Source of the DNA: Cyclobacteriaceae bacterium
GTDB lineage: Bacteria; Bacteroidota; Bacteroidia; Cytophagales; Cyclobacteriaceae
Reading direction: 5' to 3'
Length of the DNA: 64,000 bases
Assembly (NCBI GenBank): GCA_016787755.1
Contig: JAEUUA010000013.1
Location: forward strand, 186,001-250,000
The notes beneath the pieces were generated by a model. The model worked only from the letters and a program-made list of their open reading frames with translations, was not told where the DNA came from and did not search any database. Every line of letters begins with the position of its first letter. The first letter of the stretch is position 1. Shown one piece after another: positions 10,905 to 52,105 of the stretch. The translations under genes were made by a program, and so were the position numbers.

Positions 10905-10941
10905 ATCGTATCAAAAATTATTAACGGAGTTGAACCTAAAC

Positions 10942-13975: not shown

Positions 13976-13978
13976 CTT

Positions 13979-34856: not shown

Positions 34857-37800
34857 ATGTTGTCAAGGCTTTGGAAAATGTTGGATGTTGAGCCTGAAGA
34901 AACCGGGCCGGTATCACTTTTATTGATCCTCAGTTTTTTGATGGGACTGTTCTTAGCTACTGTTGCGGTTGCTTCCCAAACCCTTTTCCTTACCACGTTT
35001 GATGAAAAATTTGACCTTCCAAAGGCGATTGCCATCTCCGGAGTAATGGGAATGGCTGTAACTATGCTTTATAATTTCCTTCAAGGCCGCATTCCTTTTA
35101 CCGCCCTTGCCATTCTTTGTTTGTTGCTTATCACTTCACTCACTGCCTTTTTGGAATTTGGCGACAGCTTTATCGAAGATACCGATAATTTGTACCGATT
35201 TGGGTTTATGCTCATCCTGCCCTTTACCTTTTTGATCCAATTAGTGTTTTGGGGATCCTTCAACAGGATGTTTAACGTTCGGGAAGCTAAACGGCTGGTG
35301 GGCAGCGTAGATGTGGGAACCGATTTTGCAGCCATCCTTTCATTTTTCACGATTCCAATTTTACTGGGGTTAGGAGTTGACCTGATCTCTCTATACACCA
35401 TTGGGCTTGTCAGTATTACTGGGTTTGTGATTTTATTCAGCATCATGGCAAGCCGCTACTTGATCAAAGGAAATGCGGTCGTTAAATCTGAATCGGACCT
35501 TAAAAAACTCTCAATCGGCCAATTCATTGGCAATAAGTACATTATGTTGCTCTCCTTGTTCGTAGTTGTTTCTATAGTCTCGCAGCAGTTTGTGGATTAC
35601 TCTTTTTATAATGCGGCCACTATTCAATTCAATAACGTTCAACTTCCTGTCTTCTTGAGTTACTTTGAAATGACGGTGGTGATCTTTGGATTTTTGTTTA
35701 CCACGTTTGCCACGGATAGAATCAATCAGGACTATGGACTTCGGGTTTCACTCCTGATTAATCCATTGTTGCTTATCCTTTTCACCATCTCAGCTTTTGC
35801 GTTAGGATCCTACTTTGGATACGATCTTACTACTGGCGAAAGCAGTACCATTATTTTCTTTTTTATCGCTATCGCGATGAGTAAACTATTTATCAATTCA
35901 CTTCGCGATGCGTTGGATAATCCTACGTTCAAGTTTTATTATGTGCCTATCGATAAGGAGATCAACATTGATGCACAAACTAAAATTGAAGGATTTGTAA
36001 CGGCATTCGCCAGTGCGGTGGCCGGGGGATTGATTGTATTAATTAACCAGTTTAAGGGCTTTACCGTGTTATCTATTACACTTTTTGCACTCCCGGTGTT
36101 GGTAATCTGGTATTGGGTAACCAACCGCATGTATCATGGCTATCGCGAAACACTGCAAGATTCCTTGGTCAAAAATAAGTCGGCTGTCAAGAAAAATCTG
36201 GTAAAAGAGTACACCATGGATAGTGTACTCGAAAAAGAAGTCAACAGCACGATAGAAGAAAAAATAATCTACGGCCTCAAGTTGATGGAGAAATTAGAGC
36301 CTGCCCTCTTCGAAACTTCCCTGCTTCAACTGGTTGATAACAAGTCGAAAAAAATTGCCGGATTTGCTCAATCCAAAATTCAGGAACTTGGAATCCAGCA
36401 TACAGATTCTGAAATAAAAGGACTTGCTGCACAAGCTGCCGGCATGGCTGAAGACAGCGACCTGCTCTCCATACCGGTTGAAAAATTGATGAAGTTGAGT
36501 AAGTCGGTAAAGCAACCCGATCGGTTGCTGGCTGCTAAGCTTATGCGCAAGCTCACCAATCAAAAAACGATTTTCATTTTGCTGGAACTCATGCGCGATG
36601 CGGATCCGAAAGTGAGAACAGAAGCGTTGCTGACAGCCCGAAAAGTAAAGCGACCAGAAACCTGGAACGTACTTATTGAGTTACTCTCATCGCCACGGTA
36701 TGCTCATCAGGCTGCAGCCGCGCTAAAGGAAGCCGGGGCACCTGTACTCCCCATCTTAGAAGCAGCCTTTCACAAGTCCGGTCAGAATGATTTAATCATG
36801 CTTAAGCTCATTCAGATTATGGGCCATATCCCCGGTTCGGAAAGTTTGCAGATGCTCTGGAAAAAAATTGATTACCCGGATAAACGCGTGGTCAGCCAGA
36901 TTTTGTATAGCCTACGCTACATTAACTATAGGGCACAAGGCCGCGAAGCATTAGCTGTAAAAGACTTGCTTGATACGGAGATGAGTAAAACGCTCTGGAA
37001 TTTAGCTGCGCTCCATGAACTTACAGGCGAAGATCAATACACCTACTTAAAAGAAGCACTCCGCGAAGAAATTCGGGATAACTACGATCAAATTACTTTA
37101 CTTCTTTCTTTGTTATACGATCCTGAATCGGTTCAATTAGTAAGAGAAAACGTGGAATTAGGCACTCCCGACAGTGTGCAGTATGCCTTAGAACTCCTGG
37201 ATTTGTTTGTAGATCAGGATCTAAAACCAAAGTTGATTCCGTTGCTTGATGACACCTCCACGTCTAAAAAACTTGAAAACCTCCAAACATTTTTCCCTCG
37301 CGAAAGCTATAATCCCATTCAGGTAATCAATTACATCCTCAATCGGGATTTTAATTATAACAACCGCTGGACAAAGGTATGTGCCGTATATGCTACGGCA
37401 TTCATTCCATCTTTCCGGGTAAGCCGGGGATTAATCAGTCAGATGTTTAACAACGACAAACTGCTTCAGGAAACGACTGCCTGGGTTATTTATAATAAGA
37501 GTAAGTCAGATTATCAAAAAGTTTCTGATCGCCTTCCCTATAAGGACAAGCGCTTCCTTGATTCTTCCATCGAAAACAATCAATTGTTGGATGGGCTCGA
37601 TGATGGTTTCTTTCTGTTCATAGAAATGGTGATGTTGATAAAAAAGATCCCTGTCTTTAACCACATTCAAGGGAAAGTACTGAGTGATTTGGCGGATAAA
37701 ATTATGCCCATCACACTGAAAGCAAATGAGAAAATGAACCTGACGGATGCGCAGGACATGCCGATCCTTATTATGGCGCATGGCAAAGTGGTGTTGAAAA

Positions 37801-38024
37801 ACGATACCCTGGATGTCATGCACATGCAACCCGGAAGCGTGTATGGTGATTTATTTCAGGAAGGTCCAACGCCAATAATTACTGAAGTGCTGGCTACTGA
37901 GCGCTCCGTAATTTTTAAAATTAATTTAATCGATTTCTATTTTGTGCTGGCCAATCATCATGAACTGGCACAAGGATTAATTCACAATATCACCGAAACA
38001 CAAAACAAACAACTCGCACCTTAA
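34857..38024 (+). CDS. MFS/nucleotide-transporter-like protein with HEAT repeats and cNMP-binding domain
   Basis: The 1055-residue protein has three parts. Residues 1-430 hold about 12 membrane segments (for example LLLILSFLMGLFLATVAVAS and TALAILCLLLITSLTAFLEF), resembling ATP/ADP-translocase-like or MFS carriers. Residues about 440-830 are HEAT-like helical repeats (LMRDADPKVRTEALLTARKV, VWNVLIELLSS-type units). Residues about 930-1055 form a cyclic-nucleotide-binding fold with DVMHMQPGSVYGDLFQEG in place of the usual phosphate-binding cassette. It could act as a membrane sensor or gated transporter. It is the first of a six-gene run with gaps of 3-21 bp or overlaps, followed after 10 bp by the TIR-like gene. 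Substrate and ligand are unknown. Confidence 0.88.
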   Translation: MLSRLWKMLDVEPEETGPVSLLLILSFLMGLFLATVAVASQTLFLTTFDEKFDLPKAIAISGVMGMAVTMLYNFLQGRIPFTALAILCLLLITSLTAFLEFGDSFIEDTDNLYRFGFMLILPFTFLIQLVFWGSFNRMFNVREAKRLVGSVDVGTDFAAILSFFTIPILLGLGVDLISLYTIGLVSITGFVILFSIMASRYLIKGNAVVKSESDLKKLSIGQFIGNKYIMLLSLFVVVSIVSQQFVDYSFYNAATIQFNNVQLPVFLSYFEMTVVIFGFLFTTFATDRINQDYGLRVSLLINPLLLILFTISAFALGSYFGYDLTTGESSTIIFFFIAIAMSKLFINSLRDALDNPTFKFYYVPIDKEINIDAQTKIEGFVTAFASAVAGGLIVLINQFKGFTVLSITLFALPVLVIWYWVTNRMYHGYRETLQDSLVKNKSAVKKNLVKEYTMDSVLEKEVNSTIEEKIIYGLKLMEKLEPALFETSLLQLVDNKSKKIAGFAQSKIQELGIQHTDSEIKGLAAQAAGMAEDSDLLSIPVEKLMKLSKSVKQPDRLLAAKLMRKLTNQKTIFILLELMRDADPKVRTEALLTARKVKRPETWNVLIELLSSPRYAHQAAAALKEAGAPVLPILEAAFHKSGQNDLIMLKLIQIMGHIPGSESLQMLWKKIDYPDKRVVSQILYSLRYINYRAQGREALAVKDLLDTEMSKTLWNLAALHELTGEDQYTYLKEALREEIRDNYDQITLLLSLLYDPESVQLVRENVELGTPDSVQYALELLDLFVDQDLKPKLIPLLDDTSTSKKLENLQTFFPRESYNPIQVINYILNRDFNYNNRWTKVCAVYATAFIPSFRVSRGLISQMFNNDKLLQETTAWVIYNKSKSDYQKVSDRLPYKDKRFLDSSIENNQLLDGLDDGFFLFIEMVMLIKKIPVFNHIQGKVLSDLADKIMPITLKANEKMNLTDAQDMPILIMAHGKVVLKNDTLDVMHMQPGSVYGDLFQEGPTPIITEVLATERSVIFKINLIDFYFVLANHHELAQGLIHNITETQNKQLAP

Positions 38025-38034
38025 TTTTTTAAAC

Positions 38035-39471
38035 ATGGCCTTTGACATTGACGTACTGATAACCTTTGCTGAGAAAGACAATGAAGCAGCTCAAAAGAGT
38101 GAACAAGGATGGGTATCCCAATTCAAAAAATTTCTTGAGTTGATGTTGTTACAGGTGTTGGGTACCAAACCCAACATTGTACTTAAATCGGAATTTGATA
38201 CCGCCACTGCCCCTGCTTTAAATAATGCTGCCATTCTGGTTTCTGTGCTTACCTCTGAGTTCGTGCAATCAGGCAGGTGTCTCGATAATGTAGAAGCATT
38301 TTATAAAGCCACTGCAACCTCAAAAATCAATCGCGTGTTTAAAGTGCTTAAAGCACCCTTAACCCTGCAAGAACAGCCTCCCCGCTTACGCGATTTGATT
38401 GGCTACGACATGTATCAACTCGATACCGAAACCGGAATGCAGAAAGAATATTCAGACTTCTTTAGCCAGGAAGCGGAAAAACAATATTGGATGAAATTGG
38501 TGGACTTAGCCTACGATATTCATGATGCCCTCATGATTTTGAAAGAAGGAGATCTTAAATCAGAGGTAAAAAACATCTACAAACGCAAATCCATATACCT
38601 CGCAGAGACCGGCCACGATATTTCCGTTCAACGGAACATTATTAAGCGTGAACTGCAACGCCATGGGTACATTGTATTACCTAAAAGCACATTACCCACT
38701 CAAGCTGCGGAATTAGAACGCGAGGTTAAAAAAGATTTAGCGGAATGCTCACTCTCCATTCACCTGATAGGAAGTGCTTATGGCGAAATTCCGGGAGGAA
38801 CTGATCGGTCTGTGGTTGATATTCAAAACCAGCTAGCGGCAGAAATGGCGTTAGAAAAGAAACAAACCAAACAAGAGTTCTCCCGACTCATCTGGATTTC
38901 GCAAAACCTAAAGAATGCCAGTGATAAACAAAAAGCATTTATTGATACCCTCAAACGCGACACCGAAGCACAAGAAGGGGCCGAGATACTCCAAAACCCG
39001 TTGGAAGATTTTAAGAATATCATGCGGGAAGAACTTTTAGAAGCACAGGAACGAACTAAGGTGGATGAAACGGGGGGCAAGTCAATTTATTTAGTGCACG
39101 ATAAAATTGACGACCACGAGGTGAAACCATTTCGCGAGGTGATTGAAAAGTCAGGATTTAAAATCTTGTTACCCGCATTTGAAGGTGAACTGCTTGAGGT
39201 ACGCAAACAACACATCGATAACCTCAGGAATTTTGATGGGGCCATTATCTTCAAAGGCAAAGTAAACGACCAATGGGTGCGTATGAAAGTACTTGACTTA
39301 TTGAAAGCCCCCGGCTTTGGACGAAAAAAACCCATTCAGGGAAAAGCATTGGTATCTACCGAAAACGCCAACGTAGATCAATATAAAAATCAGAACCTGA
39401 CGCTAATCTCCGGTGATAAAAACCGGTCGTTGGAGACGCTGAAAAACTTTTTACTAGAACTAAACTCATAA
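38035..39471 (+). CDS. Protein with three TIR-like domains
   Basis: The 478-residue soluble protein reads as three TIR-fold units. The first (about residues 4-165) starts DVLITFAEKDN and has NNAAILVSVLTSEFVQSGRCLD, close to the TIR pattern of a hydrophobic strand, S, then a Cys/Glu-rich helix. The second (about 183-330) starts KSIYLAETGHDISVQ and has CSLSIHLIGSAYGEIPGG. The third (about 347-478) starts KSIYLVHDKIDDHEV and has LRNFDGAIIFKGKVNDQW. Many bacterial TIR domains cleave NAD+ or act as signalling adaptors. A catalytic glutamate is possible in domain 1 (CLDNVEAF) but not certain. It lies 4 bp before the STAND NTPase gene, so the products probably act together. Confidence 0.78.
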   Translation: MAFDIDVLITFAEKDNEAAQKSEQGWVSQFKKFLELMLLQVLGTKPNIVLKSEFDTATAPALNNAAILVSVLTSEFVQSGRCLDNVEAFYKATATSKINRVFKVLKAPLTLQEQPPRLRDLIGYDMYQLDTETGMQKEYSDFFSQEAEKQYWMKLVDLAYDIHDALMILKEGDLKSEVKNIYKRKSIYLAETGHDISVQRNIIKRELQRHGYIVLPKSTLPTQAAELEREVKKDLAECSLSIHLIGSAYGEIPGGTDRSVVDIQNQLAAEMALEKKQTKQEFSRLIWISQNLKNASDKQKAFIDTLKRDTEAQEGAEILQNPLEDFKNIMREELLEAQERTKVDETGGKSIYLVHDKIDDHEVKPFREVIEKSGFKILLPAFEGELLEVRKQHIDNLRNFDGAIIFKGKVNDQWVRMKVLDLLKAPGFGRKKPIQGKALVSTENANVDQYKNQNLTLISGDKNRSLETLKNFLLELNS

Positions 39472-39475
39472 ACCT

Positions 39476-42400
39476 ATGAGCCAGATAGACGAAAATCAAA
39501 CAGGCACCCTTGTCGGGACAAGCAATCCTTTTCCCGGATTAAGGCCTTTCAAGATTGAAGAGAGTCACTTATTCTTTGGCCGCGAAGGCCAGAGTGATGA
39601 AGTACTGCTCAAACTTTCAAAGAGTCGCTTTGTGGGGGTTATTGGTCCATCAGGAAGTGGTAAGTCTTCGTTTATTTATTGTGGAGTGCTTCCCATTCTG
39701 TACGGAGGATTCTTAACAGATGCAAGTCCAAACTGGGAAGTGATTGTTACCCGCCCCGGAGCAGGACCCATCGATAACCTTGCCGAATCTTTGTTAAAGG
39801 CGGTTAAAGATTACAGCACTGCCGATAGCGAGGATAAAAAAATCAAGCGCACAATTGTCTCCACATTGTTGCGTAGCAGTTCCCTGGGCCTTGTGGAGGC
39901 CATTCAGCAATCGCGCAAGAAAGAAGACATCAATTATCTGATACTGGTTGACCAGTTTGAAGAATTATTTAGATTTAAAGACAGCACCGACCCCAACTCG
40001 GTAAACGAATCCTTAGCCTTCATCAACTTACTGATGGAAGCGGTGAACTACGAGGACACTCCTATTTATGTAGCGATTACCATGCGGTCGGATTTTATCG
40101 GGGATTGCGCACAGTTTCCTGAATTAACGCGCAAGATCAATGACAGTCACTACCTGATTCCACAAATGACGCGCGATCAAAAGCGCAGAGCCGTGGAAGG
40201 TCCGGTGGCCGTGGGCGATGCAAACATTACTCCGCGTCTCGTGCAGCAATTGCTCAATGACTTAGGGGATAATCCGGATCAACTTCCGATTCTTCAACAT
40301 GCGTTAATGCGCACCTGGAGTTATTGGTCGCGCTTTAAAGATTATGATGGCGAGCCGGTTGACTTAAAACATTATGAGGCCATTGGTACCATGTCTGAAG
40401 CCTTATCGCAGCATGCGAACGAAGCCTATGACGAATTGGATGAAGATCAAAAACGAATTTGTGAAATCCTGTTTAAAGCCATCACTGAAAAACGTGGCGA
40501 GAACTTTGGGATTCGCAGACCTACCCGCTTAAATGAAATTGCTTCCATTGCCGATGTCTCAGAAGCCGATGTCATAGATGTCATTGAAAAATTCAGAGAG
40601 CCCGGCCGTTCTTTATTAACACCCGCGCATGGTATTGATCTCGACTCCAAGTCAATGATTGATATTTCGCACGAAAGTTTGATGCGGATTTGGGTGCGGT
40701 TGAAGAACTGGGTGGACGATGAAAGTGAAGCCGTGCAAATGTATTTACGCCTGGCCGAAGCGGCAGGACAGTATCAAGTAGGCAAAGCCGGCTTATGGCG
40801 GCCACCTGATTTACAGTTGGCGCTCAACTGGCAGGCGAAACACAAACCTACGTTGGTGTGGGGTCAGCGGTATCATCCCGCCTTTGAGCGAACACTTATC
40901 TTTTTAGAATATTCTAAAAAAGAATTTGATACCGAGCAACGGATAAAAGAACTCGAACAAAAACGCAAACTTCAACGTGCCCGGGTAACGGCCATTGTAT
41001 TTGGTACCCTTGCCGGTATTGCGTTGATCGCATTTGTGTATGCATTTGTACAACAGGCCGAAGCAAAAAAACAGGAACTGCTTGCAAAAGAACTGGCAGT
41101 CCAAGCTCAAAAAAATGCTGATGAAGCTATTCAGGAACGGAAGAAGGCCGAAACCGCCAGAGATATTGCCAAGGCCGCAGAAGCAAGGGCACTTGCAGCA
41201 AAGGAGGCTGAAGCTGAGCAACGTGCACAAGCCGAATTAAGAAGGCAACAAGCCGAAGCTGCGGAGGCAGAAGCAAAACTGCAGCGAGCTCAAGCTGAAA
41301 GGAATGCAATCGCTGCCCGCAAAGCAGAAGGCGAGGCCAAAGCGAATGAAAAACTGGCCAATGAAAATGCCGATAAAGCAAGGCGTGAAAAGTATTTATC
41401 GCTCGCCAAAGCGATGGCCATTAAATCGAAAGAGCTAAGCAACAGCCTTTCCCTGGAAGCTTTGGTAGCGCAACAGGCATACCTCTTCAATAAAGAGTTC
41501 AAAGGGTATGAATATAACAGTGATGTATATGGGGGATTATACACCGCACTAAAAAATTATGATCATCCGCTAACCAAAAGTTTGGAAGGTCATATCCGTG
41601 GAGGCGCCCGAGCGCTGGAAACGCATGGAACAGGAAATCACATTTACTCGGGGGGTAGCGATGGCCTGATCATTAAATGGAATTACCTGAACAACAAATG
41701 GAATGCAGAATATTTAGTGGATTCAGCCAGGCGTGCAAAAGATCCGTATCTGGTGTATACCATTGACACAAGTCCTGACGGGAACTGGTTGGTAGCGGGT
41801 GGCTTATACCCTGTTAACCGGGATGCCAACTATGTCGAACTATATGATCTGAAAAACCCAAAAGCCCCGGTAAAAAAAATCTATGGGTTTAAGTCGGACA
41901 TTGCAAACATTCATTTTACACCGGATGGAAAAGGTTTTTATGCGCGCGATAACTCGGGGCGCAGCATTAAATATTCTGATCTCAACACCTCAAAAGAGGT
42001 GATCTCCACGCAGGAGAAAATTGTTTCGCTCGATATCAATGAAGCCGGCACTCAAATGGCCGGAGCCGGAGCCGATGGAAATCTTTATCTCTGGGAGATT
42101 GGCCGAAACTTTGCGGTCACTAAAATTAATATCTCCAAAGGGTTGTCAGCCGTTTGCTTTGCACCGGATGGGCGACAGATTGTGACAGGCGATCGCGATG
42201 GAATCCTTCGAATTGTAAGCAATAATATAGTCATTAGGGAGTTGCCTGGTCACTCCGGGCAAATTGAAGCCATTAAGTTCAACCACGCTGGCACATTTAT
42301 GGCCTCGGCAAGTAAAGATTATTCGGTAAGGCTTTGGAATTTCAGAAAGCTGAACGAACAACCTATTACCCTGAGTGACCATGATTGGGTGTGGGATGTA

Positions 42401-42673
42401 ACCTTTACCCCTGACGACTCTCAGTTGATGGCCGGAATACAAAGTGTTCGGGAGACTGTAAAAGGCGTAGACCAAACGATTCACGCCTACCCCACCAACT
42501 TTGAGGTAATGGCCAACATTTTATGCGAAAAGGCGCAGCGAAATATGGATAAAAATGAATGGGAGATTTTTGTGCTGCCGATAGATGAAGATTCTCCCTA
42601 TCAAAAAACCTGCGAAAACTATCCAGGCATTCAGTCAAGCATTAGTGTACCATCTAAAAAAGCGGGGAAATAG
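39476..42673 (+). CDS. Membrane-anchored STAND NTPase with WD40 repeats
   Basis: The 1065-residue protein begins with an nSTAND1-type NTPase (FPGLRPFKIEESHLFFGRE). The Walker A is GPSGSGKSS (about residues 56-64) and the Walker B LILVDQFEELF (about 156-166), followed by a helical/winged region to about 480. One membrane segment follows at about 506-528 (VTAIVFGTLAGIALIAFVYA). Then comes an Ala/Glu/Lys/Gln-rich coiled coil (about 530-640), and WD40-like repeats from about 690 to 1000 (YSGGSDGLIIKW, MAGAGADGNLYLWEI, MASASKDYSVRLWNF). With one helix, the NTPase and propeller should lie on opposite sides of the inner membrane. STAND proteins are signal-triggered oligomerising switches; the TIR-like gene 4 bp upstream is the likely partner. 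Confidence 0.92.
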   Translation: MSQIDENQTGTLVGTSNPFPGLRPFKIEESHLFFGREGQSDEVLLKLSKSRFVGVIGPSGSGKSSFIYCGVLPILYGGFLTDASPNWEVIVTRPGAGPIDNLAESLLKAVKDYSTADSEDKKIKRTIVSTLLRSSSLGLVEAIQQSRKKEDINYLILVDQFEELFRFKDSTDPNSVNESLAFINLLMEAVNYEDTPIYVAITMRSDFIGDCAQFPELTRKINDSHYLIPQMTRDQKRRAVEGPVAVGDANITPRLVQQLLNDLGDNPDQLPILQHALMRTWSYWSRFKDYDGEPVDLKHYEAIGTMSEALSQHANEAYDELDEDQKRICEILFKAITEKRGENFGIRRPTRLNEIASIADVSEADVIDVIEKFREPGRSLLTPAHGIDLDSKSMIDISHESLMRIWVRLKNWVDDESEAVQMYLRLAEAAGQYQVGKAGLWRPPDLQLALNWQAKHKPTLVWGQRYHPAFERTLIFLEYSKKEFDTEQRIKELEQKRKLQRARVTAIVFGTLAGIALIAFVYAFVQQAEAKKQELLAKELAVQAQKNADEAIQERKKAETARDIAKAAEARALAAKEAEAEQRAQAELRRQQAEAAEAEAKLQRAQAERNAIAARKAEGEAKANEKLANENADKARREKYLSLAKAMAIKSKELSNSLSLEALVAQQAYLFNKEFKGYEYNSDVYGGLYTALKNYDHPLTKSLEGHIRGGARALETHGTGNHIYSGGSDGLIIKWNYLNNKWNAEYLVDSARRAKDPYLVYTIDTSPDGNWLVAGGLYPVNRDANYVELYDLKNPKAPVKKIYGFKSDIANIHFTPDGKGFYARDNSGRSIKYSDLNTSKEVISTQEKIVSLDINEAGTQMAGAGADGNLYLWEIGRNFAVTKINISKGLSAVCFAPDGRQIVTGDRDGILRIVSNNIVIRELPGHSGQIEAIKFNHAGTFMASASKDYSVRLWNFRKLNEQPITLSDHDWVWDVTFTPDDSQLMAGIQSVRETVKGVDQTIHAYPTNFEVMANILCEKAQRNMDKNEWEIFVLPIDEDSPYQKTCENYPGIQSSISVPSKKAGK

Positions 42674-42676
42674 ATT

Positions 42677-43744
42677 ATGAAGAAACTCTACCTACTGCTC
42701 CTTATTTTTTTTATAGCGGCTACAAGTATTGCGCAAACCTCCTCGTGCGCACAAACCATCCGGCTGGCACAATCTATTTATGATCAGGGTCGATTGCATG
42801 AATTAGAAAATCTCATCACAAAACAGATTGACAAAGGAGATTGCTCAACGGCTGAAAAAGTAAGCCTCTATAAATTGCTCACCCTTGCCTACATCTATTT
42901 GGAAGAACCTGTGAAAGCCGATGATTCCATGCTTAAGTTAATTCAAACCGATCATTATTTTGAAATTAATCCGGCCGTAGATCCCGCGGAGTTTGTTGCT
43001 TTGTATAACACCTTCCGCACAAAACCCATATACCGCATTGGTGCTAAGTTAGGGGTTAATGCAAGCAGGCCTAATGTTGCCAATTCAGTAACTAGTGTGG
43101 AACTTGCTGCAGACAGTGAGTACAAATTTGCCTTCGCTATTTTATTTGGAGGCGCGATCGATGTTCCGATTCATTTTAGAAATAAAAATGACGATCGCTT
43201 TACGCTACATGGCGAGCTACTGTATTGGCAGAAAAAATTCGAGATTGACCAAAAGGTAGACCGAGGAACAGACTCCGAAGGAAAAATGTTGACGAATTCC
43301 TTGATAGGGTTTGAAACACAAACCTGGTTATCCCTTCCGTTAAGTTTTGAGTACAAATTTTTAGACAAGAAATACAACCCCTACGCGGCCGGTGGCGTGG
43401 CTATTGATTATCTGTTAGCCGGCAAAGTTCAAACACAAAGACTACGCGATAATGTTATTTCTGTTCAGGAAGCTACATACAATATTAAGCAGCAGCGTAA
43501 TCCAATCAATGTAAGCGCTTTGTTGGCTGCCGGGGTAAAGCTAAAAATGGGCGGTGGTTTTTTTGTTGCCGAGATCAGATATGTCCATGGCTTAACCAAC
43601 GTCAATTCTTCAGAAACGGTTTACGACAATCAATTTGAAGTTTGGAATCAGGGATATCCGGATTCTATTTTTAAAGTTTCATCATTGGCCATTTCGGGCT
43701 CGTACGTAATCAATGTGTTTAATCCTAAGAAAAAGAAGCTGTGA
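42677..43744 (+). CDS. Outer-membrane beta-barrel protein with helical N-terminal segment
   Basis: The 355-residue protein has a signal peptide (MKKLYLLLLIFFIAATSIAQ). An alpha-helical, TPR-like segment (about residues 25-110) includes SIYDQGRLHELENLI and VSLYKLLTLAYIYLEEP. A C-terminal beta-barrel (about 115-350) resembles PorT-type outer-membrane proteins: YRIGAKLGVNAS, FTLHGELLYWQKKF, YNPYAAGGVAIDYLLA, FFVAEIRYVHGLTN. It follows the STAND gene by 3 bp and overlaps the following lipoprotein frame, so it is part of the same run. It would supply the outer-membrane element of an envelope-spanning assembly (inference). Confidence 0.8.
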   Translation: MKKLYLLLLIFFIAATSIAQTSSCAQTIRLAQSIYDQGRLHELENLITKQIDKGDCSTAEKVSLYKLLTLAYIYLEEPVKADDSMLKLIQTDHYFEINPAVDPAEFVALYNTFRTKPIYRIGAKLGVNASRPNVANSVTSVELAADSEYKFAFAILFGGAIDVPIHFRNKNDDRFTLHGELLYWQKKFEIDQKVDRGTDSEGKMLTNSLIGFETQTWLSLPLSFEYKFLDKKYNPYAAGGVAIDYLLAGKVQTQRLRDNVISVQEATYNIKQQRNPINVSALLAAGVKLKMGGGFFVAEIRYVHGLTNVNSSETVYDNQFEVWNQGYPDSIFKVSSLAISGSYVINVFNPKKKKL

Positions 43745-43749
43745 GACAA

Positions 43750-45075
43750 ATGAGAAAATATTTTCTAATTTTTATTTCTTGTATTGTACTCTCCTGCCAA
43801 AACATGGAGAATGCAGACCCTGCACCGCGCACTACCTTTATAAAATTTTATGAAGGTACCTATGGCATTACCGCGTCAAGCTTTGAGATTTTACCTAAAG
43901 AAGGATTCGTTATCGTGGGTACTATGGTATCTGATTCTACCTATACAATAATAATTACAACAGACAAAAGCGGAAACAGAACTAAAGATTTTGCAAAATT
44001 TTCTGGCGGAACTGGCAAGGCGATTAAGCCTATTATGAACGGTGACTCAATCGTTACACATTATATAGTTGTTGGCGACAGTATTAAAATAAACCCATTT
44101 GCCGATCAGGTAGCGAATGTAACGATATCCTCCTTGCGGGGACTTATTCTTTCAAGTGATCTAACATTAGTGCGCAAGTTTGCGGTCGCTGATCTTGATC
44201 CGGATACAACCCGGGTGAAAGAAGATTTTACCGGTGAGGCTCTTAAAGTAACTGATGACGGGCGGTTATTCATTTTGGGAACCGCAAAAAAAGGTGTACC
44301 CAATCAGGTTACAGCTCCAGCTGAACCTTTTATAAAAGCATTTAAAAGTGATTTTACAAAAGATTGGCAAAAACGCTATGAATTAAACGGCAGAACTTCT
44401 CAAAATTCAAGATCCATTCAATATAGCAATGGCAAAATAATCTGGGCTTCCGCCATTGCAGATGAAACAGGGGGTTTTACCAATTCTTGGATTGGTATCC
44501 CTATTATTGACGAAAACTCAGTCTATCCAAACTATAGTGTGTTGGGTCAAAACACGGCCCAGAAATTTGTACCCAAAGATATTCAACCTGCCAGTGAACC
44601 CAGTTTTGGATATGGAGTGGTAGGTACGTACAGTGAAGATACTGATGGAAGCAAAGGCAATATCTTTTTTTTAAGAGTGTACGCCAATGGTACTATTGTT
44701 CCTGACAGCGATCGTTATTTTGATGGAGGTGAATTACTAAATACAGGAAATAAGCTAGATGATAGAAAAACCTCGGTGACCATTGATGAAGGTGAGGCAT
44801 TAACAGCTACGAAAGATGGTGGATTTGTGCTGGCAGGTACATTTAAATCCACGTCAAGTATTGGCAATGGTGGCTTAGATCTTTTTCTGATTAAAGTAAA
44901 TGCACTTGGAGACCTGGTCTGGTTCAAAACATTCGGTGGCGCAGGAGATGAAACCCCTGTTGCCATCCACGAAGACGCAAGTGGCAACCTGATTGTGGGT
45001 GGCACAAACAAATTAGGTGACTACGCAACTGTCTTTCTGATGAAGACCGATAAAAATGGCGAACTAAAGAAGTAA
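43750..45075 (+). CDS. Beta-propeller-like lipoprotein
   Basis: The ATG at 43750 gives a proper lipoprotein signal (MRKYFLIFISCIVLSCQN, lipobox VLSC); a GTG nine bases upstream overlaps the stop of the preceding gene and is less likely. The mature part, about 425 residues, has repeated Gly-rich strands of the type DGGFVLAGTFKS, GGLDLFLIKVNALGDLVWFKTFGG and GNLIVGGTNKLGDYATVFLMKTD. These repeats are typical of a beta-propeller found in Bacteroidota surface proteins. It is likely exposed on the cell surface or periplasmic face. It precedes the giant T9SS gene by 21 bp. No enzymatic motif was seen. Confidence 0.8.
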   Translation: MRKYFLIFISCIVLSCQNMENADPAPRTTFIKFYEGTYGITASSFEILPKEGFVIVGTMVSDSTYTIIITTDKSGNRTKDFAKFSGGTGKAIKPIMNGDSIVTHYIVVGDSIKINPFADQVANVTISSLRGLILSSDLTLVRKFAVADLDPDTTRVKEDFTGEALKVTDDGRLFILGTAKKGVPNQVTAPAEPFIKAFKSDFTKDWQKRYELNGRTSQNSRSIQYSNGKIIWASAIADETGGFTNSWIGIPIIDENSVYPNYSVLGQNTAQKFVPKDIQPASEPSFGYGVVGTYSEDTDGSKGNIFFLRVYANGTIVPDSDRYFDGGELLNTGNKLDDRKTSVTIDEGEALTATKDGGFVLAGTFKSTSSIGNGGLDLFLIKVNALGDLVWFKTFGGAGDETPVAIHEDASGNLIVGGTNKLGDYATVFLMKTDKNGELKK

Positions 45076-45096
45076 GATATTTAAAGAAATAAGGTT

Positions 45097-48000
45097 ATGA
45101 GGCACTTGTTGGTTAGAAACATTTCAAACCTGCTGAAGGTTAAGTTTTGGTGGCTTACCTTTTCGCTATTACTGATTGGCACATTGGGCTTAAGCCAGGC
45201 CCCCACGGTGGACACCCCAACCGTTACCGCGGTGGGTACAACCACCGCCACTTTGGGTGGAAACATTACCGGTACCCTCACACATCGGGGAACTCGTTGG
45301 CATACCGCTTCCCCCGTTGGAACCAATAATCAACTCGAAGAGGCTTCCACTACAGCCGGAGCATTTACCCAACCGCGTACGGGATTACCGGCCGCTACTA
45401 AAATATTTTTTGTAGCCTATGGGCGCAATGCGGCACCGGAGGCAACGACACCTGAAACAACATTTTTTACAGAACCTATTCAACTGGCAGGTGGCCAATT
45501 TACCGCAAGCGCCACATCAGCAACAGTCATCACATTAACATTTCCTTCCGCTGATTCCTGGAAAGGAACTGGCGCCACAGCAGGCTACGTAATCTTTAGA
45601 AAATCAGGAAGTGCTCCTTCACTTGGAGCATTAGCCGATGGCGCAGCCCCAATGGCCGATGGGGTTGGTGATAAGATTACCACCATTACAGGTGGCGCAC
45701 TTACTACCTTCAATGACAACACCGGCCTGAGTGCGGCCACGGATTACTATTATACAATTATTCCTTTTGTTTGGGATGGTGCTGCTGCAGCTACTTATAA
45801 TTACAATACCACCACTCCACAAACAGCTAACGACTTTACTTTTGCAGCAAAACCAGGAAGCCATGCCACCGGATCACTGACCGCTACAGCCGTAAGTTCT
45901 TCTCAAATTAACCTTGCGTTTAATAGTGTTACTACCAGTGCCATTGCGAATGCTACCGGGTATATTGTTCTGATTAAAAGTTCTGCTATTGTAGTGGGCG
46001 ACCTGGCCACATTAGCAGATGGAGCAGCACCCAATTCGTTTGGCCTGTTTGAGGCAATCATTAATTCTACTGCAACAAATAGTTATAATGATATAACCGG
46101 GTTGAGCGCTAATACCACGTACCATTATGCAATCATTCCATACAATAGAGGAAGCAGCGATGAAACGTATAATTATCTAAAAACAGCTGGCTTCCCAACT
46201 GGAAGCGCAACTACATTAGCGACCGCAACTTTTACGCCTATTAATGGCGGAACCGCACCTGTGATTGCTGGCACAATACTTTCTGCCGGTACTAATCTAC
46301 AAGTACTTACAGGATTTTCAGTAGTTTCAAATGGTACTCAAATTATAGACGATATTGGGTTCAATTACTCCGGCCTTTCAGGACAATTCACAAATGAATA
46401 TTTGTATCGCTCAACTACGGCAGGCACAATCGGAACTCAATTGCTCAGTGATAATACACCCGATGGAAATTTTAACATGGCTTCCGTCTTGGCTGCCAAT
46501 AAAACGATTAATTCAACGCCTGTTTACTATTATCTCGTAGTGGATGTTGCTAATTCTGTTACCTCAAGTACGGCATCAGTAACGACCAACCCCACGCAAG
46601 CCAATATCAATATGGCTTCAGGAACGGTGGATGCGTTTTCAATTAACCGAAGTTTTACCTTCAGCACATCCCAACTCTCGGATATTATCTTAACAGGCGG
46701 CACAACAGTTTCTATAAATTATAGATCTTTTGTTAGCAACTCAATTAATGATGATCAGTCAAATAGCGTTTCGCTTGCCGATTATAAAATTCGGGATGGA
46801 GGTGCTGCCAATGATCCGGATAATAAAGGAATGAGTGTAACCTCAATCGAAATCCAGATCACCAATTCTGACAACCTGAGAAGAGTGGCTTTGTTTGATG
46901 ATGTAGCAAACACGGAAATACCGGGCACCGAGCAAGGGCTTGTTGGCACAGGAACCGTGAACATCATTTTTACACCCACCACCCCTATTAGTATTGTTGA
47001 CAATGGCTCATTCGATATAAACGTTCGAGCTACCTTCAAGGGGTTAGTTACAGACAAACAGGCCATTCGAATCTCCATCGTATCAGCCACAGCCAATAAC
47101 ACAACCCTGTCGGGTTTTTCATCAGTCGGTTCATGGGCAAGCACCCAAACTGCCAGCAATACTAACGTAGTTGCTGTTACTGCGACAAAACTTATTTTTG
47201 TTACTAATCCACCTGCAACACCAATAAACACTAATTTCAGTTTAACAGTAAATGCAGTGGACTCTAATCCATATAATAATATAGACCTGGATTATACCGG
47301 GCAAATTGGGCTAACCAAGTCACCAGCCTCAGGCACATTGAGTGTTGGCGGTGCAGAAAGCTTAACCCCTTCGTTAGTTTCCGGACAGTACGCATGGACT
47401 CAATTAAAAATAAGTGCTGCAGGTACTTATACACTTGACGCTTCCGATGATTTATATGCTGATGCTATTGGAGATGCCTCAGGAAGCGTAACCATTTCAA
47501 GTTCCGCCTCCACCGTTACTCAACCAGCCGCGCTGAACTTATGTTTTGGTGGTCTCTCTCAAACGCTGGGCAATATTGTAATTACTGAAACAGACCCTTC
47601 TGGTTTTTCTTCCGGTGGATCTTTCGCGTTGACCTTACCTTCTGGATTTATTTTTGATCAAAGTGTAACGACAGCTCCTACGGTAGGTGGGGGTTCCGAT
47701 ATCTCCGCGCCCACAGTGCTAAGTTATCCTTCAGCTAATACCGTGCAATTCAGTTATACAATCAGTGGATCCTCTAATACCAACTCAATTACCATTACAG
47801 GGTTAAAAATTACACACCCACACCCTGGTGGAGATGCCCCCGGAACTAACAGTGGGTCAATAACACGATCAGGCGGTACAGCTTCAGTGGCCGGAGTTGT
47901 ACCGGGTACAGCACTAGCATCTGTGAACGCAACTCTGGGAAGCCCTGCTCCAATAGGGTTTGGTTTTTCCGTCCAGAAATTAAACTCCGGTGATGTTGAT

Positions 48001-51000
48001 GTTAATCCAAATGAAACTCGCTTTAGTCAGAATTCAAATGCGGTTCGGTTGGTAGGCGCCCCCGCTGCTGTAGGGGGTGTTACGCATGAATTCATTGGCG
48101 CTGGGGTAACCTTTATTTCTGGTGAGTACCGCTTCAATCCTCAATCCTTATCTCCAGGCACCTACCCAATTGTTTTCAAATATCGGGACGGTGTTGGGCA
48201 AAAATGTGAGTTTCAAGCTAGTAAAACTTTTGAAATTTATACTACTAATATCACGAATCTAAATGCGCAATACTGTAATAACGATCCACAAACAAGTCCA
48301 ATGAATGTTAATTCCTATATAGCTACCTTTTACTCGGGTGGAGGTTATAGTAATTGGACTTTGCAAAAGTTTATCTATTGGGATACTCCAAACTCAGTTC
48401 AAAAAGATATTCTAAGTCCGGCAAATAATATTTTTGATCCTAAGCTTTCAACTTACCAATCAATATACTCTTCAACGGGAACTACATACGGTGTAATTGG
48501 TATCTGGATTGGATTTATAATCTCTGGTGATTACGATGCTCCACCCACAACAGTTTGCAATACGATTTGTATTCCATTTGGTGGCTGTTTCCCAGTTTGT
48601 GTAGTTGACGATCCTCCGCCCACAACTCAGACACGAACCATCTGGCAATTGATACCCGTACGACCGGGTCCATCAGTCTCTTTCTCAATTCCTAAAACCA
48701 CGTTTTGTTCTGACGAAGCCTCTGTCACCCTGACGGGGACTCCTGCTAATTCGAATACAACATCAGAGGACTTTTTTTCAATCTCGAGTGATAATGGGTC
48801 AATTAGCAGTTCGTCTGCTCCTGTAGTATGGTCGTTTACCCCCGGAAATGTTAGCGGACTTCCCAAAACGTTGGACATTACCTATACCTATCGAGACCCT
48901 TCAACGGGTTGCTCAGGAACCAGCGCTGCCAAAACAATAACTGTTAATACAAGACCAACAACAGTTCCTGCTGGCTCAATTTCTAAAGTACCAGCAGCAT
49001 CTCCTCCTTCTACAACGATAGAACTTTGTCAAGGTGCGCAGGTTGGTTCATTTAATGGAGCTACAGTTGCGGGGACTACATATACATGGTATGCCGATCC
49101 TGCTCTTACCATCGTAAAAGGGACTTTGAATTCCTTTTCGCCCCCCATTGATAACACAATTGCTTCAACAACTAATTTTTATGTAACCCGAACCATTGCG
49201 GGTTGCGAAAGTGACAAATCACCAACGGTACCTACCCCTGCGCGTGAGTTAACTGTTATTGTGCACCCGACTCCAGGCAAACCCGTTCCCGATTTTAATA
49301 TCGAGTACTGCGTGAATGAAACTATTGTTGCGAACGATTTTAAAATTTTAAGCGGTTCAAATATTAAGTGGTACCAATCGGGAATTCAACTGCTCGATAA
49401 TGTAAGTTCACCCACTTTAACCCAAATTACATCCACCCCTGCAGGGCCAGGTAAATTAGGGGTGGTCAATAGCGCATCCAATGTTTATGATTTTCAAGTA
49501 ACACAAACAGCTAATAATTGCGAGGGCACTCTCTTTCCAACCAACATTACTGTCAAAATCAAGCCACTTCCTAAATTGGATATCAATTTGAAAGGGGGTT
49601 TTGATCCTTCAAAAATTTGCACTACAGGAGGAAACATAACTTTTATAGGAACGGATCAGGGCAATACTACACAAAATGGCATCTGGTCAACCGTTGGAAA
49701 TTCATTTACTGCTGGTGCTTTGTCACCCAACTCAACCGCAGGTACAGTTGATCTTACCCCGGTGAATGAGAATCCAGATAATTACACCTTGAAATATGAA
49801 TACACGAATCCTGATGGATGCACGAATAATACAACACTTCCGCTAAGCATTTTACCAAAAATTAATACCTCTATAGTTCCGCTGGATTCCTGTGCAGGCC
49901 TCTTTGTTAGGTTAAATAATCAATCCACCTTAGTAAAGGGTGGGCTTAGCACATCAACCACCACAATCGCTCAAACTTCGTGGAACTTTAGTGATGGATC
50001 GGGGCTGGCCTTTGGGTCTGGTGCTGTTCCATTTCCAACCGCTAATGATGGCCGAACAAAGGGTACTTACTTTAGTCCAGAACATAAGTTTAAAATAACA
50101 GGCTCGGTAAATCTCCAATACACTATGCGCACGAGTGATGGCTGTAGCTACCTTGGCTCGAAACAACTAACTATTGCCCCCAAGCCAGAAATGGATTTCA
50201 GTTGGCGCAATGTGTGCAGGGATGGAACTTCAACAACTCAATTTCTTGCTACAGAAGCCAATTCGCTTGCTATTAGCAATTATTCCTGGTCTTTCGCTGA
50301 TAATAATACGCTTAGCATTGCTGCTGCTCAAAATAATAAAGTCAACCCTATCGTGAACTACAGTTCTGATGGAACTGATTTTGCAACCCTAATAGCAACT
50401 ACAACCTCTCAGTGCAAAGACACAGTAAGCAAACCCATTTATATTGTTCCAAAGTTTACCCCGATCACAAATAATAATTCATACACGCAAGACTTCAATA
50501 GCAGTAAAGATAGTTGGCTAGTGGGCGGAACAAATCCATCCTGGGAATGGGGCACCTTTGAAAAAAAGGGAACTGAGAACACACCTACTCATTCCAAAGG
50601 CTGGGAAACAAATCTTAATAGCACCATAAACAAAGGATATAACAATGCCAATGAACAATCATGGGTATTGAGTAGATGCTTCAACTTTACATCGGCATTA
50701 AAACCGGTAATAGGGCTGGATATTTTCTCTGATACACCTTTTGGAGTAAATGGTGCAGCCATTCAATATAATTACAATGGCAATATTGAAGATGATGCAA
50801 GTTGGGTAACATTAGGAGAGGTAAACAAAGGAATCAAGTGGTATGATATTACAGGTATCTCAAATAGCCCAGGAAATCAACCTCCTGGAAATCCGGCTGG
50901 AAATGATTTAGGATGGACGGGTAATCAAGCATCACCTACCGATGGAAAATACAAAGAATGGCAAAGAGCCTATTATCGCTTAGACGAATTGCTTCAACTC

Positions 51001-52050
51001 ACTCCCGCTCAAAAATCTAATGTGGTTTTTCGAATTGCATTTGCTGCTGGAAATTCGCGAAGCGATGGTTTTGCCTTTGATGATTTCTTTATCGGTGAGC
51101 GGAGTCGTATTGTTCTCCTTGAAAATTTCACTAATTCATCTTCAAACGTTTCTGCAAATAATACTGCATATAGCGCGCTAGGAAATTCAGCAGAGATTGT
51201 GAAAGTTCAATACCATACCCCTTTTCCAGGTGATGATGCCATCAACAAACTCAACGCACCCATGCATAATGCGCGAACGGCATTTTATGGAATTACAAAA
51301 TCGCCAATTATGCGCCTTGATGGCATTGAAGGTAATCTTAATACCATTGGAAAAATTTATGATGATCGGGTGCTAACACCCTCGTCCTTGGAAATAACGG
51401 TAACTCCAACAAAAGTGGGGGGTGTTGTTGAGATTGTGACTGCTATTAAAAACAAATCAAGTCAACCGGTTGCTTTGGCAGGGGCACACATTTTTACAAC
51501 GATTGTTGAAAAGAGTATTACAACCCCTCCTCTACTATTAGGAAACAGTGGAAGTACAGAATTTAAATTTGTCGCTAAGCAAATGTTGCCAACCCCAACA
51601 GGCCTGGCCATCCCTGCTAATCTTGCTGTTGGGGACACTTATACTGCACCCAAAGTAATTTGGCAAATTAATAATGGTGATGCCATTGTTGTTGCAGTGC
51701 AATCTATTGAAGGTGACAAAAAGGGAGTATACCAGGCAAGTGTTTTCCTTAACCCGCCTCAACCCGATCTTGTCACCGGCATCGAACAGATTGCAGAGTT
51801 CATTCAACTCTACCCCAACCCTGCCCATGATAGTTTTGTAATTGAACTGCCTACTAAAACGGATAACCCATTATCGGTACATATGATTGATCAGGTGGGT
51901 CGGGTTGTACATGAAACAAGTATGGAGGTAGGCGAACAAACCAAAACCATTAACACACAAGACCTGGCCGGAGGAATTTACATTGTGCAGATTGGGGCCG
52001 GCAACTCGGGGGTGGTGCGGAAGAAAATGATGATTGTGCATAAAAATTAA
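45097..52050 (+). CDS. Giant T9SS-secreted surface protein
   Basis: The 2317-residue protein has a signal segment (LTFSLLLIGTLGLSQA) and two tandem fibronectin-III-like domains at about residues 130-375 that share ADGAAP, NDNTGLSA/NDITGLSA and YYTIIPF/YHYAIIPY. A long series of Ig-like and PKD-like beta-sandwich domains follows, with paired cysteines around 1050-1180. A concanavalin/MAM-like module lies near 1800-2000 (SWVLSRCFNFTSA, GFAFDDFFIGE). Then comes an Omp28-like segment (IVLLENFTNSSSNVS) lacking the usual redox cysteines, and a T9SS type A sorting domain (LYPNPAHDSFVIEL to GVVRKKMMIVHKN). It is probably an adhesin or matrix protein. It is the last gene before the terminator at 52072 and may be the exported output of the upstream signalling genes. 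Confidence 0.92.
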   Translation: MRHLLVRNISNLLKVKFWWLTFSLLLIGTLGLSQAPTVDTPTVTAVGTTTATLGGNITGTLTHRGTRWHTASPVGTNNQLEEASTTAGAFTQPRTGLPAATKIFFVAYGRNAAPEATTPETTFFTEPIQLAGGQFTASATSATVITLTFPSADSWKGTGATAGYVIFRKSGSAPSLGALADGAAPMADGVGDKITTITGGALTTFNDNTGLSAATDYYYTIIPFVWDGAAAATYNYNTTTPQTANDFTFAAKPGSHATGSLTATAVSSSQINLAFNSVTTSAIANATGYIVLIKSSAIVVGDLATLADGAAPNSFGLFEAIINSTATNSYNDITGLSANTTYHYAIIPYNRGSSDETYNYLKTAGFPTGSATTLATATFTPINGGTAPVIAGTILSAGTNLQVLTGFSVVSNGTQIIDDIGFNYSGLSGQFTNEYLYRSTTAGTIGTQLLSDNTPDGNFNMASVLAANKTINSTPVYYYLVVDVANSVTSSTASVTTNPTQANINMASGTVDAFSINRSFTFSTSQLSDIILTGGTTVSINYRSFVSNSINDDQSNSVSLADYKIRDGGAANDPDNKGMSVTSIEIQITNSDNLRRVALFDDVANTEIPGTEQGLVGTGTVNIIFTPTTPISIVDNGSFDINVRATFKGLVTDKQAIRISIVSATANNTTLSGFSSVGSWASTQTASNTNVVAVTATKLIFVTNPPATPINTNFSLTVNAVDSNPYNNIDLDYTGQIGLTKSPASGTLSVGGAESLTPSLVSGQYAWTQLKISAAGTYTLDASDDLYADAIGDASGSVTISSSASTVTQPAALNLCFGGLSQTLGNIVITETDPSGFSSGGSFALTLPSGFIFDQSVTTAPTVGGGSDISAPTVLSYPSANTVQFSYTISGSSNTNSITITGLKITHPHPGGDAPGTNSGSITRSGGTASVAGVVPGTALASVNATLGSPAPIGFGFSVQKLNSGDVDVNPNETRFSQNSNAVRLVGAPAAVGGVTHEFIGAGVTFISGEYRFNPQSLSPGTYPIVFKYRDGVGQKCEFQASKTFEIYTTNITNLNAQYCNNDPQTSPMNVNSYIATFYSGGGYSNWTLQKFIYWDTPNSVQKDILSPANNIFDPKLSTYQSIYSSTGTTYGVIGIWIGFIISGDYDAPPTTVCNTICIPFGGCFPVCVVDDPPPTTQTRTIWQLIPVRPGPSVSFSIPKTTFCSDEASVTLTGTPANSNTTSEDFFSISSDNGSISSSSAPVVWSFTPGNVSGLPKTLDITYTYRDPSTGCSGTSAAKTITVNTRPTTVPAGSISKVPAASPPSTTIELCQGAQVGSFNGATVAGTTYTWYADPALTIVKGTLNSFSPPIDNTIASTTNFYVTRTIAGCESDKSPTVPTPARELTVIVHPTPGKPVPDFNIEYCVNETIVANDFKILSGSNIKWYQSGIQLLDNVSSPTLTQITSTPAGPGKLGVVNSASNVYDFQVTQTANNCEGTLFPTNITVKIKPLPKLDINLKGGFDPSKICTTGGNITFIGTDQGNTTQNGIWSTVGNSFTAGALSPNSTAGTVDLTPVNENPDNYTLKYEYTNPDGCTNNTTLPLSILPKINTSIVPLDSCAGLFVRLNNQSTLVKGGLSTSTTTIAQTSWNFSDGSGLAFGSGAVPFPTANDGRTKGTYFSPEHKFKITGSVNLQYTMRTSDGCSYLGSKQLTIAPKPEMDFSWRNVCRDGTSTTQFLATEANSLAISNYSWSFADNNTLSIAAAQNNKVNPIVNYSSDGTDFATLIATTTSQCKDTVSKPIYIVPKFTPITNNNSYTQDFNSSKDSWLVGGTNPSWEWGTFEKKGTENTPTHSKGWETNLNSTINKGYNNANEQSWVLSRCFNFTSALKPVIGLDIFSDTPFGVNGAAIQYNYNGNIEDDASWVTLGEVNKGIKWYDITGISNSPGNQPPGNPAGNDLGWTGNQASPTDGKYKEWQRAYYRLDELLQLTPAQKSNVVFRIAFAAGNSRSDGFAFDDFFIGERSRIVLLENFTNSSSNVSANNTAYSALGNSAEIVKVQYHTPFPGDDAINKLNAPMHNARTAFYGITKSPIMRLDGIEGNLNTIGKIYDDRVLTPSSLEITVTPTKVGGVVEIVTAIKNKSSQPVALAGAHIFTTIVEKSITTPPLLLGNSGSTEFKFVAKQMLPTPTGLAIPANLAVGDTYTAPKVIWQINNGDAIVVAVQSIEGDKKGVYQASVFLNPPQPDLVTGIEQIAEFIQLYPNPAHDSFVIELPTKTDNPLSVHMIDQVGRVVHETSMEVGEQTKTINTQDLAGGIYIVQIGAGNSGVVRKKMMIVHKN

Positions 52051-52071: not shown

Positions 52072-52105
52072 AAAAAGCCCTTTTTACTACTAAAAAGGGC
52101 TTTTT
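52072..52105 (+). terminator. Strong intrinsic terminator after the giant T9SS gene
   Basis: AAAAAGCCCTTTTTA (52072-52086) pairs perfectly with TAAAAAGGGCTTTTT (52091-52105) around the loop CTAC. The T-run continues beyond the stem. The symmetric A/T arms could work in both directions, but the next gene is also rightward. It closes the run that begins at 34857. Confidence 0.85.

Follow-up and report, generated by a model that had tools for sequence, protein, structure and literature searches.

A conserved six-gene cluster of Cyclobacteriaceae encoding a membrane STAND NTPase and envelope proteins, a possible trans-envelope signalling relay

Organization of the gene cluster

We analysed a stretch of 64,000 nucleotides from the Cyclobacteriaceae bacterium assembly GCA_016787755.1 (contig JAEUUA010000013.1, positions 186,001 to 250,000), which is hereafter called the window, and focused on a cluster of six genes (g1 to g6) at positions 34857-52050 on its + strand, to which all coordinates below refer. 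An earlier note, made from the letters alone, had described five tightly packed genes at 34857..45075. The five open reading frames (ORFs) were found as described, with gaps of 10 bp (g1-g2), 4 bp (g2-g3) and 3 bp (g3-g4) and a 4-bp overlap between g4 and g5, but a sixth was overlooked; the ORF of g6 starts 21 bp past the end of g5 (45075), and the cluster runs to 52050. It is followed by a terminator-like hairpin with a T tail at 52072-52105 (15 pairs, -17.8 kcal/mol, z -3.9), which has the most pairs of all terminator-like hairpins in the scan and probably marks the end of the operon. Together, the six genes make up a single cluster, which is conserved and operon-like.

The predicted inner-membrane STAND NTPase and its alanine-heptad stalk

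The central gene, g3 (39476..42673), encodes a predicted inner-membrane STAND NTPase of 1065 amino acids, as judged by Pfam, alignment and hydrophobicity. Its nSTAND1 NTPase domain (residues ~17-500, 39524..40975; Pfam PF20703, E 1.7e-96) is predicted to be cytoplasmic and has intact Walker A and B motifs, GPSGSGKSS and DQFEELF being invariant in the 26 aligned rows. A single transmembrane helix follows (residues 507-525, 40994..41050), which is predicted to be oriented with the N-terminus inside, with five Lys or Arg among the preceding 15 residues and three among the following 15. The C-terminal WD40 propeller (41411..42670, E 4.8e-29), which carries the invariant residues C1017 and C1046, is predicted to be periplasmic, and it provides the superstructure-forming sensor repeats that are expected of the STAND class. 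STAND NTPases have been described as signal-triggered assembly switches (PMC7159879), and the nSTAND1 clade was named in PMC8195603, the term being used also in PMC10907252; no third paper containing it turned up in the open-access search. The transmembrane STAND NTPase recognized in the earlier note is composed of nSTAND1, one hydrophobic helix and WD40, and its remark that this membrane-crossing architecture and the envelope partners are unusual holds as a description of what is unusual here.

Between the helix and the propeller lies an alanine-heptad stalk (~523-639, 41042..41392). The alignment of the 26 g3 proteins has 16 positions with at least 90% Ala, and their spacing is always 7 except for one of 14. 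The stalk is longer by exactly 7 residues in 10 of the 26 rows and shorter by 1 in one row (L041, which contains undetermined residues). Because the heptad register is constant and the insertions and deletions are whole heptads, the alignment speaks for a real helical rod. In 15 g3 proteins from the type B and type C clusters described below, 10 to 17 of the 18 positions are Ala when the best heptad phase is chosen.

Proteins encoded upstream of the STAND NTPase

The first gene, g1 (34857..38024), encodes a protein of 1055 amino acids in which Pfam, structure-profile and hydrophobicity scans revealed three parts of approximate limits: an ATP/ADP-carrier-like (NTT) membrane domain (~1-430) whose 12 hydrophobic segments give 12 predicted transmembrane helices, HEAT repeats (~431-910), and a fold of the cyclic nucleotide-binding (cNMP) type (~911-1055), in that order. 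When its profile was compared with solved structures, profile positions 121-431 matched PDB 9j3n (E 3.1e-16). HEAT_2 was detected in all 28 g1 members and cNMP_binding in 21 of them. The window protein is not among these 21; its tail falls under the Pfam reporting level and those of the relatives above it. With this qualification, the transporter-like protein with a cNMP-binding tail of the earlier note is confirmed. Fusion proteins with the same three-part NTT-HEAT-cNBD architecture have been described with their function stated as unknown (PMC5381601), and the account given there, in the part that treats them, differs from ours in not mentioning a link to STAND or outer-membrane proteins.

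The second gene, g2 (38035..39471), encodes a protein of 478 amino acids with no hydrophobic segment and, as previously recognized, three TIR-like domains (~1-170, 181-338 and 347-478), the middle one scoring as DUF4062. The presumed site of the catalytic Glu of TIR NADases was placed by the usual sequence motif alone. It falls in domain 1 on the variable residue 85, close to the invariant E87, in domain 2 on D262/Q264, and in domain 3 on Lys418, which is invariant in 37 of 37 rows. The comparison of the g2 profile with solved structures gave one match only, which was judged to be chance, and fold comparison yielded ranges and no residue pairs. The stand-alone DUF4062 proteins of relatives, with which g2 was also compared, offered no reference, as none of their residues is known to be catalytic. 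We suggest that the TIR-like domains of g2 act as adaptors and that NADase activity is probably absent.

Orphan copies of g2, without g1 and g3-g6, occur at four loci (L094, L167, L177 and L183; L denotes our locus handles), of which the first three lie near queA, and that of L094 sits ahead of terC. Another pairing of TIR-like and nSTAND1 proteins is present in the same genome as the window (L200, G000:C14:46001-64000, at 6838-16581), where the gene for a 531-amino acid DUF4062/TIR-like protein is followed after 6 bp by those for two nSTAND1-type proteins (1346 and 1348 amino acids). The first two of these three proteins had no PADLOC match. Relatives of the 531-amino acid protein, 532-535 amino acids in length, were found in four other genomes (L134, L136-L138).

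Envelope proteins encoded downstream

The barrel and surface-type lipoprotein of the earlier note were both recovered. The product of g4 (42677..43744) is a predicted outer-membrane protein of 355 amino acids, comprising an N-terminal hydrophobic segment (1-19), a helical TPR-like domain (~20-116, 42734..43024) and a small barrel (~117-350). The TPR-like domain is the part in common with the large-receptor version of the cluster (type C, see below) and is the predicted contact of the g3 propeller. The barrel is OmpA/OmpW-like and fast-changing in sequence; it matches OMP_b-brl_2 only at E values up to 1, and the Pfam scan gave no PorP/SprF-family match for g4. The product of g5 (43741..45075) is a lipoprotein of 444 amino acids with Cys19 in a lipobox-like context. 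It matches the SBBP model at E 4e-6, which is below the model cut-off, and its profile matches CylK at E 1.7e-13, and it probably folds as a beta-propeller.

The last gene, g6 (45097..52050), encodes a giant predicted surface protein of 2317 amino acids with Ig/PKD-type domains. It ends in a type IX C-terminal sorting domain (~51808-52035), and SprA is encoded in the genome, in keeping with a type IX cargo. Por_Secre_tail was found at the end of all 15 giants scanned; these were 15 of the 16 complete ones then known, including that of the window, and L114 (a split ORF), L229 and L243 lay outside the set. The giants at this position range from 1530 (L127) to more than 4300 amino acids (L115, L123), and the matches of five of them (L112, L115, L122, L123 and L127) to the window g6 range from none found to 2092 bits. 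A second type IX cargo is encoded in the window at 13979-17926 (1315 amino acids, Sortilin/BNR repeats, Por_Secre_tail).

Conservation of the window-type cluster

When genome contigs were scanned, 78 loci related to the window-type cluster (type A) were recovered, carrying the labels Cyclobacteriaceae, Flammeovirgaceae, Cytophagales, Fulvivirga, Chryseolinea, Pseudochryseolinea and Chryseosolibacter, with some labelled only Bacteroidetes or Bacteroidia. The conserved co-occurrence that the earlier note had proposed to look for is evident, since gene order is nearly fixed over these loci. Among the visible cases, g1 lies within 700 bp ahead of g2 in 70 of 72, g3 lies behind g2 in 73 of 74, and g4 lies behind g3 in 64 of 66; the exceptions are L094, whose orphan g2 counts two times, and three loci in which ORFs are broken (L097, L065 and L074). 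Behind g5, a giant ORF of at least 1376 amino acids is present in 30 of the 34 assessable among 40 longer loci, many of them running off the stretch and that of L114 being split in two; the remaining six longer loci were not assessable. Extra genes between g1 and g2 were seen twice, for a 137-amino acid protein (L229, 14440-14853) and a 650-amino acid protein (L129, 4042-5994).

Full-length g2 was found in 29 of the 35 genomes of the same genus. Pieces are present in G013 (G denotes genome handles) and a weak partial match in G021, and four genomes have none, two of which are less than 82% complete. Across the order, 60 of 390 genomes have a match to g2, partial matches counted, with a patchy distribution outside the genus, and across a sample of the phylum 6 of 395 do, two of them with partial matches only.

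In an order-wide search of 177 genomes, with cut-offs of E up to 1e-130 for g3 and up to 1e-70 for g1 and a few best candidates scored per genome, g3 was found in 59 and g1 in 48, and all 48 genomes with g1 carry g3 (hypergeometric 5e-33, kinship not corrected for). This search missed the g1 of family f11, though it adjoins g3 at the f11 loci, and the g1 counts are thus lower bounds on its presence. Of the 59 g1 copies, 40 are followed on the same strand by g3 at a distance of up to 9 kb, and 19 are non-adjacent, on another contig or hundreds of kb away. The 40 adjacent pairs include g2 in 31 cases and a g2-like gene in a further two (G482 C104 and G489), and the other 7 have neither. Conversely, g3 lies within 2 kb behind 41 of the 44 g2 copies retained, a list restricted to genomes also in the g3 list, with DUF4062-only and weak matches left out.

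The cluster is flanked by queA upstream and by terC, a bacillithiol transferase gene, a hydrolase gene and a SRAP gene downstream. The earlier note had considered that the genes might be core neighbours with separate functions. The presence of full-length g2 throughout most of the genus and the housekeeping surroundings agree with the first half of this proposal, but not with the second: because the genes are kept together, and paralogous and more distant versions retain the core, they do not look like unrelated neighbours.

Paralogous and large-receptor versions of the cluster

A paralogous version (type B) is present in the same genome on contig C20 (L202). It encodes an NTT-HEAT-cNMP protein (1051 amino acids), a STAND-WD40 protein (1068), a barrel (373), a lipoprotein (441) and a giant whose ORF runs off the contig. 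Its first two genes are 132 bp apart with no TIR gene between them, and because of this the TIR gene g2 is an optional member of the cluster. Type B was also found in G106, G242 and G202 (L226-L228), with giants of ~3000 amino acids running off the stretch, and in G475 (L248), with a giant of at least 3406 amino acids.

A more distant version (type C) was found at 10 loci in three families (f53, L221; f41, L222 and L224; f11, L225 and L230-L235). At all 10, the STAND gene is followed by a gene for a g4-like protein of 863-895 amino acids. In all four of these proteins that were tested, the N-terminal part matches the TPR-like domain of g4 (E 8e-22 to 3.7e-17), and the remainder consists of Plug and a TonB-dependent barrel in the two scanned by Pfam (L224 and L230), in which no N-terminal Pfam domain besides the TPR-like region was found. 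The next gene encodes a small protein, which is a GNAT protein in L225 and L230 and has no Pfam match in L221 and L224. The NTT-HEAT gene is in the cluster at 9 of the 10 loci, and the genome of L222 has it on another contig (L223). The scanned neighbours include an RsbW-type HATPase_c_2 protein (L224, L225 and L230), Reg_prop/Y_Y_Y proteins that end in a histidine kinase (L221 and L230) or in SpoIIE (L224) or are truncated (L225), a REC-SpoIIE protein (L221 and L230) and a second HATPase_c kinase (L230). These neighbours are the strongest sign that the core acts in signalling.

Evolutionary rates of the cluster components

We then compared evolutionary rates over 37 of the 78 loci plus the window, those with queA and g1-g5 whole. 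The mean pairwise identity was 0.865 for the NTPase, 0.673 for HEAT, 0.665 for g2, 0.591 for the TPR-like domain, 0.549 for NTT, 0.513 for the propeller, 0.512 for cNMP, 0.348 for the stalk, 0.340 for the barrel and 0.312 for g5, compared with 0.563 for queA, so that identity drops broadly, not strictly, from inside to outside. Rank correlations of the rates were high for NTPase and g2 (0.83), NTPase and HEAT (0.83), barrel and g5 (0.85) and propeller and TPR-like domain (0.71), and lower within single genes, namely NTPase and propeller of g3 (0.52) and TPR-like domain and barrel of g4 (0.49). Given queA, the propeller-TPR correlation exceeded the NTPase-TPR correlation by 0.24 (0.03 to 0.48, taxon bootstrap) and the TPR-barrel correlation by 0.22 (0.03 to 0.38), and the NTPase-HEAT correlation exceeded the NTPase-propeller correlation by 0.39 (0.21 to 0.63). 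We considered linkage as the source of these correlations, as the gene order is also the inside-to-outside order, and did not adopt it, since the two halves of a single gene show lower correlations than same-side parts of different genes. The rates fit a chain from HEAT/TIR and NTPase through propeller and TPR-like domain to barrel and lipoprotein, which would place the NTPase alongside its cytoplasmic partners, and the propeller alongside the partner in the outer membrane.

A proposed trans-envelope relay and its alternatives

Taken together, we suggest, with a probability of roughly 0.55, that the cluster products form a signalling relay across the envelope, from the surface inward, which in Cytophagales is tied to a giant surface protein. 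The predicted outer-membrane barrel g4, encoded with the giant g6, would meet the g3 propeller via its TPR-like domain. The helix charge bias and the compartments of the partners point to a cytoplasmic NTPase and a periplasmic propeller, and the stalk of ~110 residues, ~16 nm if helical, would extend toward the outer membrane. A signal would cause STAND-type opening or oligomerization of g3 and would pass from outside to inside, on to two cytoplasmic partners, the HEAT/cNMP protein g1 and the triple-TIR protein g2, of which g2 probably lacks NADase activity. In Cytophagales, the relay would likely respond to the giant protein at the surface, namely to its engagement, load or presence. The cluster, the domain make-up of its proteins, its alternate versions and the co-occurrence of g1 and g3 are observed directly, and from gene content and sequence comparison we infer the topology, contacts, direction, signal and output of the relay.

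Several observations weigh against this relay. First, no output gene was seen in the window cluster; at type C loci no g5 and no giant were seen, and L221 and L222 lack a visible adjacent RsbW-type gene. Second, the set is not always whole. The giant ORF is missing in 4 of 34 loci (L172, L174, L180 and L181), g3 occurs alone or with g4 only in L236-L239, L241 and L242, L240 has g3-g4-g5 without g1, and L247 has g1-g4 with no visible g5 or giant; family f19 has g1 apart from g3, either at a distance of hundreds of kb or on a different contig. Third, many genera of the same family are without g2, and the orphan loci show that the triple-TIR protein can stand alone. Finally, the inside-to-outside gradient is broken by the NTT and cNMP parts of g1, which change faster than the TPR-like domain, and by the stalk, and similar evolutionary rates could be a partial confounder of the correlations.

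Among other explanations, the one that survives best, though we consider it unlikely, is control in the opposite direction, in which the NTPase drives or gates export, anchoring or movement of the giant adhesin via stalk and barrel, in the manner of TolA or the type IX motor. In its favour, the cluster combines a barrel, a lipoprotein and a giant type IX cargo with a long stalk and a highly conserved NTPase, and the phylum is known to have outer-membrane proteins joined by disulfides to an internal track that moves (PMC12635249). However, type C retains the STAND protein, the TPR-like domain and the NTT-HEAT protein with no giant seen and has two-component and partner-switching proteins instead, and STAND NTPases are described in PMC7159879 as assembly switches rather than motors. 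A further proposal, that the cluster is a component of the type IX secretion machine, was set aside because type C shows no giant cargo.

The earlier note had proposed an envelope-sensing or phage-entry surveillance system; the envelope-sensing part is supported, the phage-defence part is not. Defence, which was the reading weighed first, would have the STAND protein sense phage at the envelope and the TIR protein deplete NAD. TIR and STAND proteins are a known immune pairing, with DUF4062 NADases in the Swarozyc system (PMC13174449), and the distribution of g2 beyond the genus is patchy. The cNMP domain of the type B g1 (L202, 9286-12441) resembles that of Pycsar TIR effectors, whose PADLOC models match residues 939-1042 (E 9.4e-6; PDB 8jsk). 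Weak PADLOC matches were also obtained for other g3 proteins, to mad3/mad8/AbiLi (L224 and L230) and to HEAT-ARM_XIII (L202, E 5.7e-8, in the propeller region), as well as to HEAT-ARM_XIII for the g1 of L224. For the window g1-g5, however, the sole PADLOC match was to a P-loop stretch of 24 residues in g3, with none for g1, g2, g4 and g5, and no Pycsar cyclase was found among g1-g6 or ten neighbouring or window proteins scanned; none was recognized among the ORFs listed at L202 when these were checked by eye only. The location in a defence island, which the note had proposed to check, is also not borne out by the scanned window neighbours, which are housekeeping genes, and full-length g2 is present in 29 of the 35 genomes of the genus. 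The TIR gene, the chief hint of immunity, is missing from the paralogous cluster, and the presumed Glu site is variable in domain 1 and an invariant Lys in domain 3. On these grounds (PADLOC, neighbours and the TIR-less paralog) we set defence low, as improbable, and the cluster looks more like a sensing system than anti-phage defence.

Equally improbable is nucleotide or nutrient uptake, in which the NTT domain would move ATP/ADP or another nucleotide, the barrel admit it and the rest regulate; the NTT match of g1, the TonB-like receptor in the two type C proteins scanned and the nutrient role that the earlier note allowed favour it, but the window barrel is small and fast-changing, scans of the giant and the propeller lipoprotein gave no transport signature, and PMC5381601 assigns no function to the NTT-HEAT fusions it covers.

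Relation to known systems

SprB and SprF are a type IX gliding adhesin and the outer-membrane partner encoded with it. The present cluster likewise combines a giant type IX protein and a barrel gene, but it has a Por_Secre_tail-type tail and an OMP_b-brl_2 barrel with a TPR-like domain, with no PorP/SprF match. In TonB-dependent transducers of the FoxA/FoxR type, an extra N-terminal domain of the barrel meets an inner-membrane protein in the periplasm (PMC11637429). The type C TonB-type barrel also has an extra N-terminal domain; this domain is TPR-like, however, and the inner-membrane partner is a STAND NTPase with a propeller, whereas the barrel of types A and B is small and comes with a lipoprotein and a giant cargo. 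The window g4, a small barrel, is not a TonB-dependent receptor with a signalling domain, and Pfam revealed no anti-sigma or extracytoplasmic function sigma factor genes among g1-g6, with type C having an RsbW-type protein at three scanned loci. Dma, a dual-membrane regulator found only in Bacteroidota (PMC13088901), involves both membranes, as the proposed relay would, but the window cluster is without an anti-sigma/sigma pair, is NTPase-based and consists of several proteins.

The nSTAND1 proteins of conflict systems have an NTPase of the same clade as g3, but they are discussed in PMC8195603 and PMC10907252 as parts of immune or death systems, whereas g3 goes with envelope proteins and, at type C loci, with signalling genes. 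Swarozyc shares with g2 the TIR-like NADase family DUF4062 (PMC13174449), and differs from it in that g2 has housekeeping surroundings, three domains, no recognized intact catalytic motif and a genus-wide common cluster. A description of this gene cluster was not found in the open-access literature searched.

We tentatively propose that these clusters represent a new class of trans-envelope receptor, in which an NLR-like STAND NTPase serves as a transmembrane receptor with a stalk-borne propeller, and outer-membrane receptors and cytoplasmic outputs are exchangeable. The exchange, also a tentative point, would be between a small barrel with a giant adhesin and a TonB-type receptor on the outside, and between a TIR adaptor and histidine kinase/SpoIIE/RsbW proteins on the inside. 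The proposed interface between the TPR-like domain and the propeller is small and directly testable. As a caution, a TIR-STAND operon should not be taken for a defence system in every case. If true, the relay would provide a context for the widespread, uncharacterized NTT-HEAT-cNMP proteins and a handle on how Bacteroidota monitor their giant type IX surface proteins. Immunity and cell death are the settings in which STAND switches are mainly known, and a STAND protein that senses in the periplasm and works with outer-membrane receptors would, if true, add ordinary surface signalling to their roles.

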